A stretch of 64,000 nt of DNA, taken from assembly GCF_003583935.1 (NCBI RefSeq), contig NZ_QYRN01000009.1, forward strand, positions 62,001-126,000, in the 5' to 3' direction. Below the pieces are notes generated by a model. The model worked only from the letters and a program-made list of their open reading frames with translations. It had not been told where the DNA came from and ran no database searches. The DNA comes from Aureimonas flava (lineage in GTDB: Bacteria; Pseudomonadota; Alphaproteobacteria; Rhizobiales; Rhizobiaceae). Below are positions 4,796 through 7,967 of this stretch, piece after piece (within the stretch, counting starts at the first letter, position 1; every line of letters starts with the position of its first letter). The position numbers and the translations under genes were made by a program.

Positions 4796-5839
4796 CTATT
4801 CGTCCTCGCCGCCCTCGAACAGGCTGGACTGGACGCCCTGGTAGGTGGAGGGCACGGCCAGGCCGAGATGCTTGAAGGCGTGCTGGGTGAGGAGCCGTCC
4901 GCGCGGCGTGCGCTGGATGAAGCCCTGCTGGAGCAGATAGGGCTCCACGATATCCTCGATCGCGTCGCGCGGCTCCGAGAGAGCGGCGGCGATGGTCTCG
5001 ATGCCGACCGGACCGCCGCCGAAGTTCATGGCGATCAGGTCGAGATAGCGCCGGTCGAGCTGGTCGAGGCCGAGACTGTCGACGTCGAGCCGGGTCAGCG
5101 CCTCGTCCGCGATGCGCCGGTCCACCGTTTCGGAACCCGCCATGGTCGCGAAGTCGCGAACGCGGCGCAGGAGGCGGCCGGCGATGCGGGGCGTGCCGCG
5201 CGCGCGCCGGGCGATCTCGCGCGCGCCGTCGTCGCCCATGGGCAGGCTCATCAGCCGCGCTCCGCGCTTCACGATGTGTTCGAGCTCGGCGATCGTGTAG
5301 AAGTTCAGCCGCACCGGAATGCCGAACCGGTCGCGCAGCGGGGTGGTCAGAAGGCCGATGCGCGTCGTGGCCGCCACCAGCGTGAACTTGGCGAGATCGA
5401 TCTTCACCGAGCGCGCCGCCGGCCCCTCGCCGATGATGAGGTCGAGCTGGAAGTCCTCCATCGCGGGATAGAGGATCTCCTCCACCGCCGGGGACAGGCG
5501 GTGGATCTCGTCGATGAACAGGACGTCCCGCTCCTCCAGGTTGGTCAGGAGGGCGGCGAGGTCGCCGGCCTTGGCGATCACCGGGCCGGAGGTCGAGCGG
5601 AAGTTGACCCCGAGCTCCTTCGCCATGATCTGCGCCAGCGTCGTCTTGCCGAGGCCGGGCGGGCCGACGAACAGCACGTGGTCCAGCGCCTCGCCGCGCG
5701 TCTTGGCGGCCTCGATGAAGATCTTGAGATTGGCGCGCGCGGCCGCCTGGCCGACGAAGTCGTCGAGCCGCTGCGGGCGCAGCGAGGCGTCGACGTCCTC
5801 TCCGCGCTTCTCGGGGGTGATGAGGCGGGTGCTGCTCAT
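4796..5839 (-). CDS. ruvB: Holliday junction branch migration helicase RuvB
   Basis: Hexameric AAA+ motor that with RuvA drives branch migration of Holliday junctions. The 347-aa protein shows Walker [10 protein letters not shown] (about 59-67), Walker B LFIDEIHR (about 107-114), the sensor/arginine-finger stretch [20 protein letters not shown] and a C-terminal winged helix ([18 protein letters not shown]). Length is standard. ATG at 5839, 11 nt after the ruvA stop, same operon. Last gene of the ruvC-antitoxin-toxin-ruvA-ruvB transcript, closed by the hairpin at 4753-4790. Confidence 0.98.
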
Positions 5840-5850
5840 GATCTATCGCT

Positions 5851-6471
5851 TCATCGGCTGAGGGCCTTGAGGCCGAGGCGGATCAACGTGGTGGAAGGCG
5901 CATCCTCGCCCGCCTCCTTCACCGCGGCGGCGACCGCGCCGGCCGCCTGCTCGCGCGAATAGCCGAGATTGACCAGCGCCGACACCGCATCCGCGATCGG
6001 CGCCGGGGCGACGCCCTCGCCGATCTCTCGCTTCAGCCCGAAGCTTTCCACGGCCGCCGCGCCGGAGAAGGCGGGGGCCCGGTCCTTGAGTTCGGCCACG
6101 ATGCGCGCGGCGACCTTCGGCCCGACGCCCGGCGCGCGCGCCACCATCGTCCGGTCCTGGAGGGCGATGGCGTTGGCGAGATCGCCGGTGGACAGCGTCC
6201 CGACCACGGCGAGCGCCACCTTGGCGCCCACCCCCTGCACGCTCTGGAGCAGGCGGAACCAGTCGCGCTCGGCGGCGGAGGCGAAGCCGTAGAGGCGGAT
6301 CATGTCCTCGCGCACATAGGTCTCGATGAACAGCGCGGCCGCCTCCCCCGCCCCCGGCAGCCCCGCCAAGGTGCGCGCCCCGCAGAAGGCCACATAGCCG
6401 ACGCCGTGCACGTCGAGCGTCACGCAGTCCTCCTCCACCGTGTCCACGGTGCCCTTCAGCTTGCCGATCAA
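5851..6471 (-). CDS. ruvA: Holliday junction DNA helicase subunit RuvA (TTG start)
   Basis: Tetrameric protein that binds four-way junctions and loads RuvB. The sequence begins [14 protein letters not shown] and contains the two helix-hairpin-helix motifs ([16 protein letters not shown] and [20 protein letters not shown]) and a C-terminal RuvB-binding domain (about 155-206). No ATG stands at the conserved start. The codon before IGKLKG is TTG at 6471, giving 206 aa, the normal length. That TTG overlaps the TGA of the upstream PIN toxin in TTGA, so translation is probably coupled to the toxin gene. Confidence 0.93.
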
Positions 6472-6893
6472 GGATGCGTCTCCGGGCAGATGATGAGGAG
6501 GTCGGGGAAGTAGTCGCGATAGCGCGAGGCGTCGCGCGTGAGAAGGCGATGGCCGGCGAACGCCGCGTGGGCGCCGACGAGGAAGTCCGGCAGCGTGCGC
6601 TCGCGCCGTCCCCCGCGCTGCCGGTAGAGCCGGTGCGCCCGTCCGGCGGGATAGGCGGCCTCGAAGGGAAAGGGTTCGTAGGCGAAGCCGAACGGACGCA
6701 GGACCGAGAGGAGCACGCGCTCGTCGGAGTACGGTTGCGAGATCTCCGCAAACGACACGGCACTCAGACACAGGGAGCCGTGATCGGAAGCCTCGTCCAG
6801 CCGCAGGGACGACCAATGCTGCTGCTCGGGCCGGGAGTCCGCGTTGAGGATGTCGAGGAGGATGTCGGTGTCAACGAGGGTCGAGATCGTCAC
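6468..6893 (-). CDS. vapC: PIN-domain toxin, VapC type
   Basis: Putative type II toxin ribonuclease (141 aa). A PIN fold is indicated by the acidic residues expected in the active site: D8 in [11 protein letters not shown]50 in AVSFAEI, D103 in [10 protein letters not shown] and D121 in [14 protein letters not shown]. It starts at GTG 6893, overlaps the antitoxin gene by 23 nt and has CGAGGG just upstream. Its TGA overlaps the TTG of ruvA. VapC enzymes cut tRNA or rRNA; the target here is unknown. The catalytic set looks intact, so it is probably active and held by the neighbouring antitoxin. Confidence 0.85.
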
Positions 6894-7140
6894 GCGGCCC
6901 TCGGATCATGTCCATGTATTCGTCCGTCGTCAGTCCGCCGAGATCCAGGGTCCCCCGCATCGCTTCGAGAGCCTTGCGGACCTGCTCGCGCCTTCGCTGC
7001 TTGGCGTCCGCCTCGTCCAGCCGGACGACCTCCACGAAGCCGTCGCGGTCGACGAATTCCACCTCGCTCCCCGGCCCGATCCCGAGCTTGTCGCGGATCG
7101 GCTTCGGAATGGTCACCTGCCCCTTCTCGGTGACGCGCAT
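6871..7140 (-). CDS. vapB: AbrB/MazE-type antitoxin of the PIN toxin
   Basis: 89-aa DNA-binding antitoxin. Residues 1-47 form a swapped-hairpin AbrB domain (MRVTEKGQVTIPKPIRDKLG and SEVEFVDRDGFVEVVRL); the charged C-terminal half (about 48-89) should bind and block the PIN toxin. ATG at 7140 is preceded by AAAAGGG. A perfect palindrome lies 14 nt upstream of the start and is a likely autoregulatory operator. The pair sits between ruvC (31 nt beyond the palindrome) and ruvA, an unusual place for a toxin-antitoxin module. Confidence 0.88.
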   Translation of the reverse strand: MRVTEKGQVTIPKPIRDKLGIGPGSEVEFVDRDGFVEVVRLDEADAKQRRREQVRKALEAMRGTLDLGGLTTDEYMDMIRGPRDDLDPR

Positions 7141-7153
7141 CGCCTGCCCTTTT

Positions 7154-7176
7154 GGTAATACCGGATCGGTATTACC
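7154..7176 (-). promoter_or_regulatory. Palindromic operator of the toxin-antitoxin pair
   Basis: Perfect 10-bp inverted repeat, GGTAATACCG (7154-7163) and CGGTATTACC (7167-7176), around GAT. On the minus strand a TTGTTC lies 16 nt upstream of TAATAC inside the repeat, so promoter and operator may overlap. AbrB-type antitoxins commonly repress their own operon at such sites. Readthrough into ruvA-ruvB could be affected. Confidence 0.7.
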
Positions 7177-7206
7177 TATCTGCAGGACGGGAACAAGTCA
7201 AGAACA

Positions 7207-7725
7207 TCAGAGATTCGCGTAGGCCGCCCGCGCCTGCGCCGACTGGCGGTGGTGGGTGTGGCAGATGGCGATGGCGAGCGCGTCGGCGGCGTCGTCGGTG
7301 TCGAAGGTGGCCTTCGGCATCAGCACCTTCACCATCATGTGGATCTGCGCCTTCTCGCCGTGGCCGACGCCGATCACCGCCTTCTTCACCGCGTTCGGCG
7401 CGTATTCGGCGACGGGCAGCCCGGCGAGCGACGGCACCAGCATGGCGACGCCGCGCGCCTGCCCCAGCTTCAGCGTGGCCACCGCGTCCTTGTTGACGAA
7501 GGTCTGCTCCACGGCCGCCTCGTCCGGCCGGAAGCCGCCGATGACCTCGGTCAGGCCGTCGTGGAGCTGCCGCAGGCGGGTCGCGAGGTCGAGCTCGTTG
7601 TCGGAGGTCACCGTGCCGCTCGCCACGAAGCGCAGCGCGTTGCCCACCGTTTCCACGACGCCCCAGCCCGTGCGTCGAAGGCCCGGGTCGATGCCGATGA
7701 TGCGAATGGTCCGCTCCTGAAGCAT
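7207..7725 (-). CDS. ruvC: Crossover junction endodeoxyribonuclease RuvC
   Basis: Resolvase that cuts Holliday junctions symmetrically after RuvAB migration. The 172-aa protein has the four acidic active-site residues in RNase H-fold context: D13 ([14 protein letters not shown]), E73 ([13 protein letters not shown]) and D145/D148 ([18 protein letters not shown]). ATG at 7725 follows GGAAGTGG. It is the first gene of the interrupted ruv operon. The toxin-antitoxin operator begins about 30 nt after its stop, so ruvAB may depend on two promoters. Confidence 0.97.
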
Positions 7726-7819
7726 GCTCGTTCCACTTCCGTTCTTCTAGCGCATGGCTACGCCGGAGTGGTGAACAAAATGAAAAGACCGCCCCCCACC
7801 GATCCCGACAATTTTATTA

Positions 7820-7874: not shown

Positions 7875-7967
7875 ATGGACGACATGAAGCCGATGGTGGG
7901 GCTGTTGAACGGCCTCCTGTTCAGCGCCGTGCTGTGGTTGATGGTGATCGACCTCGTCATCCTGTAG
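7875..7967 (+). CDS. Small hydrophobic peptide, 30 aa
   Basis: An ORF reading MDDMKPMVGLLNGLLFSAVL followed by ten more residues to a TAG. It has a strong ribosome site (GGGGAGG, 7 nt before ATG), a plausible promoter in an AT-rich patch upstream, and one clear membrane helix (about residues 8-29). No family is recognised. Small single-helix proteins of this kind often act as membrane regulators, but no function can be assigned. It lies between ruvC (divergent) and the serine hydrolase gene. Confidence 0.55.
   Translation: MDDMKPMVGLLNGLLFSAVLWLMVIDLVIL

Follow-up and report, generated by a model that had tools for sequence, protein, structure and literature searches.

A toxin-antitoxin pair of the VapBC type is, as judged from its sequence, lodged between ruvC and ruvA in Aureimonas flava, within the 64,000-nucleotide stretch of DNA that was analysed here and that we call the window, and this module is probably a second, DNA-damage-induced supply line for ruvAB. 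We read it in this way because a match to the LexA box stands in front of the pair and a likely Shine-Dalgarno sequence for ruvA lies at the end of the toxin gene; loss of the module would probably be costly. The presence of a toxin-antitoxin pair inside ruvCAB, on the same strand and between ruvC and ruvA, had been noticed in a first-pass annotation of the window, an observation that gene coordinates and Pfam matches confirm and that is larger than was stated.

All five genes are encoded on the minus strand, in the order ruvC-vapB-vapC-ruvA-ruvB. Behind ruvC (7207-7725; Pfam RuvC PF02075, 153 bits) and a spacer of 66 nt comes vapB (6871-7140), encoding an AbrB/MazE-type antitoxin of 89 amino acids (MazE_antitoxin PF04014, 47.8 bits against a cut-off of 24.7; TIGR01439, 55.4 bits), which is the sole MazE-type match in the genome at an E-value of 0.001. 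It overlaps by 23 nt (6871-6893) with vapC (6468-6893), which has a GTG start and encodes a PIN-domain toxin of 141 amino acids (PIN PF01850, 25.8 bits against a cut-off of 23.6). There follow ruvA (5851-6471; 206 amino acids, TTG start; RuvA_N, 68 bits; TIGR00084, 180.6 bits) and ruvB (4796-5839; RuvB_N PF05496, 266.9 bits). The TGA stop of vapC (6468-6470) and the TTG start of ruvA (6469-6471) are merged in a minus-strand TTGA at 6468-6471, just as the first-pass annotation had it. Domain matches and recurrence in relatives rule out vapB and vapC as chance open reading frames, and a chance arrangement is rejected because the same gene order recurs in 72 of the 163 family genomes readable at this junction, the window's own included. 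Divergent from ruvC, a candidate 30-residue hydrophobic peptide was read by eye on the plus strand at 7875-7967.

These counts come from a sample of 217 genomes, of which 199 were drawn from the family and 18 are additional congeners; from these we fetched the 170 with a listed place for RuvA or RuvC, that is, among the matches listed and with the weakest left out. Two places in the operon were followed, slot 1 between ruvC and ruvA and slot 2 between ruvA and ruvB, the counts leaving out seven of the 170 genomes, where ruvC is absent before ruvA in the fetched stretch, and four without a readable ruvB. The 72 occupied first slots each hold an intact PIN gene, accompanied in 70 by a recognised antitoxin. 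Slot 2, readable in 166 genomes, holds a toxin-like gene of another subfamily in 56, with a recognised antitoxin in 51. That the two toxins differ rests on profile searches in which the slot-1 profile finds no slot-2 toxin at 1e-5, nor the reverse; the slot-2 toxin is labelled PIN by its conserved acidic residues, and its profile was built from the same 49 candidates that it counted, among them the doubtful one of G152, which has not the usual tail. With both junctions readable (159 genomes), both slots are filled in 32, the first only in 38, the second only in 18 and neither in 71. The extremes include a genome with two tandem AbrB-PIN pairs in slot 1 plus one slot-2 module (L073, G031) and another with two AbrB antitoxin genes in slot 2 (L129, G182). 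In four further loci (L065-L068, from G064, G165, G234 and G071) ruvC lies on another contig and none stands before ruvA; their ruvA-ruvB gaps measure 732-1358 nt and in three of the four include a recognised AbrB gene, and the gaps of about 1.36-1.38 kb in L191 (G097) and L067 (G234) contain further unassigned open frames.

The window's genus carries the module in 16 of 21 genomes. In an order-wide draw, the query A1 found matches in 33 of 249 genomes, eight of these in the family; 30 loci were fetched, and 18 of them have ruv genes as neighbours, among them loci from families f14, f16 and f28. Named carriers include records of Antarcticirhabdus, Aurantimonas, Rhizobium, Mesorhizobium and Hoeflea, the first two having a RuvA 81-82% identical to that of the window. 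The arrangement is thus widespread but not standard across the whole order; had it been standard, this would, as the first-pass annotation itself had stated, have told against its reading. Where the module is missing, the junction is short in 77 of 91 genomes, and all but a few of the junctions are without a scar, so that clean loss or primary absence appears common. Remnants are found in a few cases: by pattern, a toxin tail precedes ruvA in three module-less genomes (G085, G086 and G180), an antitoxin is retained in G129 and a short piece of toxin in G173.

Both genes look like parts of a VapBC system. The first encodes a small DNA-binding antitoxin and lies directly upstream of, and overlapping, the second, a PIN toxin with conserved acidic residues (E50 and D103 in 72 of 72 module genomes, D8 and D121 in 71 of 72). 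Since these residues are kept and the fold predicted for the toxin (pLDDT 95.7) matches structures of VapC proteins, 3zvk and 4chg among them, toxin activity of VapC is to be expected in the window; the NCBIfam model NF047959 scores 24 bits on vapC against a required 80. A mobile origin was rejected, the window's VapC giving zero matches among 50,697 phage records and 113 among plasmid records, every one below 60% identity, and so was membership of a defence system, for which PADLOC models gave zero matches.

The most telling feature of the locus is the minus-strand DNA between ruvC and vapB. Here, at 7191-7205, the LexA box GTTCTTGACTTGTTC, an exact match to GTTC-N7-GTTC and a predicted SOS operator, encloses a predicted -35-like TTGACT (7196-7201), which is followed 17 nt later by a predicted -10-like TAGGTA (7173-7178), a weak match to the consensus. 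A palindrome found by repeat search, GGTAATACC-N5-GGTATTACC at 7154-7176 (in full GGTAATACCGATCCGGTATTACC), overlaps this -10 element and is a predicted VapB operator. The span 6468-7176 assigned in the first-pass annotation covers the module and the palindrome but ends short of the LexA box, and the link that it drew between recombination and stress proves better grounded than its author knew, because a predicted LexA box and a VapB-operator-like palindrome both stand before the module. GTTC-N7-GTTC is given as the LexA motif of Alphaproteobacteria in Table 1 of PMC9578287 and in the available text of PMC3323433, and the module has a match to this motif at its predicted promoter, as a LexA-regulon gene would.

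A single match to so short a motif means little, because three occur in the whole window against 1.5 expected, and it is the comparison across relatives that carries weight. Each of the 72 module genomes has an exact LexA box at a distance of 1-21 nt behind the end of ruvC, where shuffled sequences give a mean of 0.22 in 72; of the 91 genomes without an intact module, 12 have one. The stretch searched ran from 60 nt upstream of the ruvC stop to 200 nt downstream of it in the former and up to ruvA in the latter. Among the module-less genomes, the box occurs in three of 77 gaps below 100 nt, eight of 12 gaps of 100-500 nt and one of two above 500 nt; nine of the 12 thus persist in gaps of at least 100 nt, as expected of decayed modules, and that of G085, having no TTGAC, may be due to chance. 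The three in 77 short junctions disfavour, within the family, the idea that the box is an ancestral ruvAB promoter irrespective of the module. The other promoter elements recur as well: TTGAC within the box in 67 of 72 module genomes (the exceptions being G008, G020, G131, G145 and G216, with the vapB start about 170 nt behind the box in G145 and G216), TA at the -10 spacing in 63 of 72, and a palindrome arm of at least 7 in 52 of 72 against one of 72 sequences shuffled once each. In a second, partly overlapping set of 110 homologs (60 or 61 at ruv, 49 elsewhere), among which are the locus of the window itself, other genomes of the survey and near-copies, the box is found in 51 of 60 ruv-located members and none of the 49 others; eight of the nine misses, all of which lie outside the family's usual form, read GTT[TG]-N7-GTTC, as does none of the 49. 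Slot-2 modules have the box in 0 of 48. Taken together, the LexA box and promoter are predicted to belong to the module and to be bound by LexA and VapB.

Within the window's own genome, two boxes stand upstream of lexA, one exact and the other with one mismatch, and the recA locus fetched gave neither an exact nor a one-mismatch (GTTT/GTTC) box, so that the motif is checked there at lexA only. A scan with the sigma-70 consensus found no promoter at the LexA-box site, where the -10 is poor. The same scan found none for ruvAB inside vapC, which is weak evidence because it had missed the LexA-box promoter too.

The module probably does not bring LexA control to an operon otherwise free of it. 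The stretch upstream of ruvC was readable in 60 of the 170 genomes, and 56 of these 60 have a relaxed box there (GTT[CT]-N7-GTTC), both with the module (24 of 26) and without it (32 of 34), against a shuffled mean of 0.58, and the family's ruvCAB operon therefore already looks LexA-controlled, in agreement with the induction of ruvCAB in Caulobacter described in the available part of PMC9578287 and in line with that of PMC3323433. An inverted LexA-box match, GTTCCACTTCCGTTC, lies on the plus strand at 7730-7744, 5 nt before the ruvC start, and is common to G002, G004, G009 and G015. The module looks to add to this operon an inner, exact box, and the inner promoter may be dispensable for ruvAB because ruvC has a relaxed box of its own.

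At its other end the module runs into ruvA. The last codons of vapC, CCG GAG ACG CAT CCT (P-E-T-H-P), contain a GGAG at 6480-6483 on the minus strand, 8 nt before the TTG, which sequence and a comparison of codons and energies mark as the predicted Shine-Dalgarno sequence of ruvA. A tail of the form [ED][TS]H[PS] is found in 46 of 61 ruv-located homologs and none of the 49 others; VapC homologs at non-ruv loci (L264-L314), in Actinomycetota, Myxococcota, Geobacter relatives and others, have neither tail nor LexA box. The slot-1 toxins of at least 110 residues number 73 from 72 genomes, one being the upstream copy of G031, and 40 of them share an NTGA with ruvA (ATGA 19, TTGA 17, GTGA 4), the remaining 33 having no overlap. 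Overlapping toxins have the stronger predicted pairing with the anti-Shine-Dalgarno sequence (mean -5.58 kcal/mol against -3.05; p 1.4e-6, uncorrected for kinship), more often contain GGA in the tail (37 of 40 against 16 of 33) and, among those having the tail, more often have CCG-GAG as the two codons concerned (21 of 33 against 4 of 29). The ribosome site of ruvA thus probably belongs to the module, but it alone is insufficient to explain the tail, because P-[ED]-[TS]-H-[PS] is kept in 29 of the 33 slot-1 toxins without overlap. At the second junction, 48 of the 49 slot-2 candidates end in NTGA at the ruvB start region, with ATGGA just before in 45 of 49.

The TTG start is another matter. 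The first-pass annotation expected ATG to replace TTG where the pair is absent, yet the five module-less congeners have TTG in four and GTG in the fifth, close to the 14 TTG starts among 16 congeners with the module. Across the whole sample an association does appear, ruvA starting with ATG, TTG and GTG in 50, 17 and 5 module genomes and in 79, 5 and 7 others; outside the genus, however, TTG is rare on both sides (3 of 56 with the module, 1 of 86 without). TTG is therefore best seen as a habit of the genus, in which its origin by insertion of the module is rejected.

Between its conserved ends, the module is variable in a way that points to exchange. In six of ten close pairs of genomes, DNA identity drops to 31-69% from the second part of vapB to the middle of vapC, and in the other four (G000-G015, G002-G009, G002-G007 and G009-G007) there is no drop, the middle staying at 72% or above; all ten have 82-92% in the first vapB window, 83-93% in the last vapC window and 73-100% in the ruv genes. 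At the protein level, RuvA and RuvB are 94-99% and RuvC 91-99% identical in 13 pairs. A tree of RuvC, RuvA and RuvB places seven species, the window's among them, in one group (100/99), and the approximately unbiased (AU) test rejects a single VapC clade for those seven (p 1.2e-6). VapC instead pairs G018 with G003, and G002/G007/G009 with G012, and the same test rejects for VapC a second ruv group (G012, G016 and G019; p 4.6e-4) as well as the genus as named by the database (p 2.7e-5), the last result saying less because the ruv tree itself does not firmly recover the genus. Identities of RuvA, RuvB and RuvC correlate only moderately among themselves, at 0.32-0.42, and with VapC at 0.18-0.22, and tree distances of VapC and RuvA give a Spearman coefficient of 0.14 (one of 999 permutations as high), too weak to be used alone. 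Species have apparently exchanged the middle of the module, by recombination within its conserved edges.

Exchange is not the only way to arrive at such a pattern. The module could have been fixed once and passed down vertically, its middle changing fast by co-evolution of toxin and antitoxin. The ruv-located VapC proteins are indeed strongly clustered, with three label changes against a shuffled mean of 29 in a 90-row tree made up of 52 chosen ruv rows and 38 of the 49 non-ruv rows, and VapB and VapC identities correlate (0.585, 68 genomes). VapC groups nevertheless cross the well-supported ruv groups, as the first two AU tests show, and synonymous change is raised in some pairs (in G002-G015, dS is 0.86 for vapC but 0.18 for ruvC and 0.40 for ruvA), though not in all (G000-G004, 0.63 in ruvC and 0.82 in vapC), and descent without exchange between species appears unlikely. 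At the ruvA end, the first-pass annotation had proposed that RuvA synthesis may need translation of the toxin, and in its strictest form RuvA would be made only by ribosomes just finishing vapC, so that toxin loss would silence ruvAB. The TTGA in the window and the NTGA ends at both junctions are what such coupling would produce. A good Shine-Dalgarno match 8 nt before the TTG, inside the vapC tail, speaks against the proposal, as do the 33 of 73 slot-1 toxins that do not reach ruvA and the identical 4-nt overlap of ruvC with ruvA in 19 of 91 module-less genomes, because of which vapC may merely occupy the former place of ruvC; we consider obligate coupling improbable.

A possible reading, doubtful on balance but to be taken seriously, makes the module a selfish passenger, which would profit from a valuable operon because deletions hitting ruvAB are weeded out, the host gaining nothing, the LexA box timing the module's own expression only and ruvAB living on the ruvC promoter. 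AbrB-type antitoxins do pile up at ruv: 121 family genomes have 305 MazE matches between them, and of the 150 that were listed at least 57 sit there, a lower bound in that ruv places were entered for only some of the genomes. The two slots, the tandem copies in G031 and G182, the relaxed LexA box of ruvC itself and the 91 of 163 genomes that live without an intact slot-1 toxin point the same way. Against it, toxins that overlap ruvA differ from those that do not in the strength of the Shine-Dalgarno match and in the codons used in the tail, so that the junction looks tuned for ruvA, and some decayed loci retain the LexA box or the toxin tail. A module that supplies ruvAB under DNA damage is the reading that we prefer.

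Several known systems resemble this one in part. In the E. coli dinB operon, dinB-yafN-yafO-yafP, the toxin-antitoxin pair lies behind dinB, and to our knowledge it supplies neither the dinB promoter nor its ribosome site. What that operon has in common with the ruv module is that a DNA-repair gene and a toxin-antitoxin pair are joined in a single SOS operon (PMC9578287, available text). The available text of PMC13384398 describes a nearer parallel, higBA of Caulobacter crescentus, likewise a chromosomal type II module in Alphaproteobacteria, with a promoter repressed by LexA and by its own antitoxin, a LexA site in sequence unique to strains with the module, and a downstream host gene (higX) under the module promoter. 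The differences are that the double control was measured in Caulobacter and is predicted for the ruv module, that higBA is restricted to one lineage and encodes other toxin and antitoxin families, and that the gene downstream of it, at a distance of 42 bp, encodes a transcription factor, whereas here a repair helicase follows, with its likely ribosome site in the module's last gene. The ruv module thus works like higBA in its predicted double control but, its proteins being PIN and AbrB/MazE and not HigB and HigA, is a VapBC system and not a member of that family. For Vibrionaceae, the available text of PMC3323433 reports that ruvC and ruvAB are each preceded by a LexA site of their own and that other genes have been inserted into the operon; it does not name a toxin-antitoxin module, and the gamma-proteobacterial LexA motif differs.

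The same gene order has been met before in Rhizobium leguminosarum 3841, where, in the available text of PMC11406972, a VapBC pair (RL3987-RL3988) lies upstream of ruvAB (RL3989-RL3990), in the same order before ruvA. In the transposon screen of that paper, vapB (RL3987), vapC (RL3988), ruvA (RL3989) and ruvB (RL3990) all fall in the core attachment set, the bacteria needing them to attach to roots at three pHs, which is the result to be expected of a single transcription unit; vapB, with fewer than six insertion sites, is in a later-stage class apart from the other three. Its authors ascribe a role to the toxin-antitoxin pair and to ruvAB alike; the gene order described above suggests that all four phenotypes could stem from polar loss of RuvAB. 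The text available to us notes the location and mentions neither LexA box, ribosome site nor second slot, and ruvC has zero occurrences in the main text. Our search of open-access literature, which most subscription papers and preprints lie outside, found the gene order in PMC11406972 only; PMC2701414 has zero occurrences of RuvA or RuvC.

The mechanism that we propose would run as follows. LexA and the VapB-VapC complex would both repress the inner promoter until DNA damage removes LexA, whereupon vapB-vapC-ruvA-ruvB would be fired as one message, adding to read-through from the LexA-controlled ruvC promoter. RuvA would be made by ribosomes re-initiating after vapC or by new ones binding the GGAG, VapB would normally neutralise VapC, and rebinding of VapBC would shut the promoter again. 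Deletion of the module would take the inner promoter and ribosome site of ruvAB along with it, so that partial decay would be better tolerated than total loss. Homologous recombination in the conserved edges may pass the variable middle, antitoxin tail plus toxin head, from one species to another.

More tentatively, though as a real possibility, the ruvCAB operon of this Rhizobiaceae-type family might be a docking station for exchangeable toxin-antitoxin cassettes in the two fixed slots, in which each toxin tail would be the ribosome site of the next ruv gene and the first cassette would carry a LexA promoter of its own. The Holliday-junction machinery would then be expressed through a toxin gene, and, with specificity cores swapped between species by homologous recombination, growth arrest would be coupled to the capacity for recombination when DNA is damaged.

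It has long been asked why toxin-antitoxin modules are kept in chromosomes, and here the question becomes testable at one locus. The module occupies one and the same position in several families of an order, appears to have become part of both the promoter and the ribosome site of a core repair gene, and is seemingly still being exchanged. Natural relatives with zero, one, two or three modules make comparisons possible with or without toxin activity and the inner LexA site. The locus also carries a warning, in that what is scored when such 'toxin' genes are knocked out or hit by a transposon may really be the loss of RuvAB.
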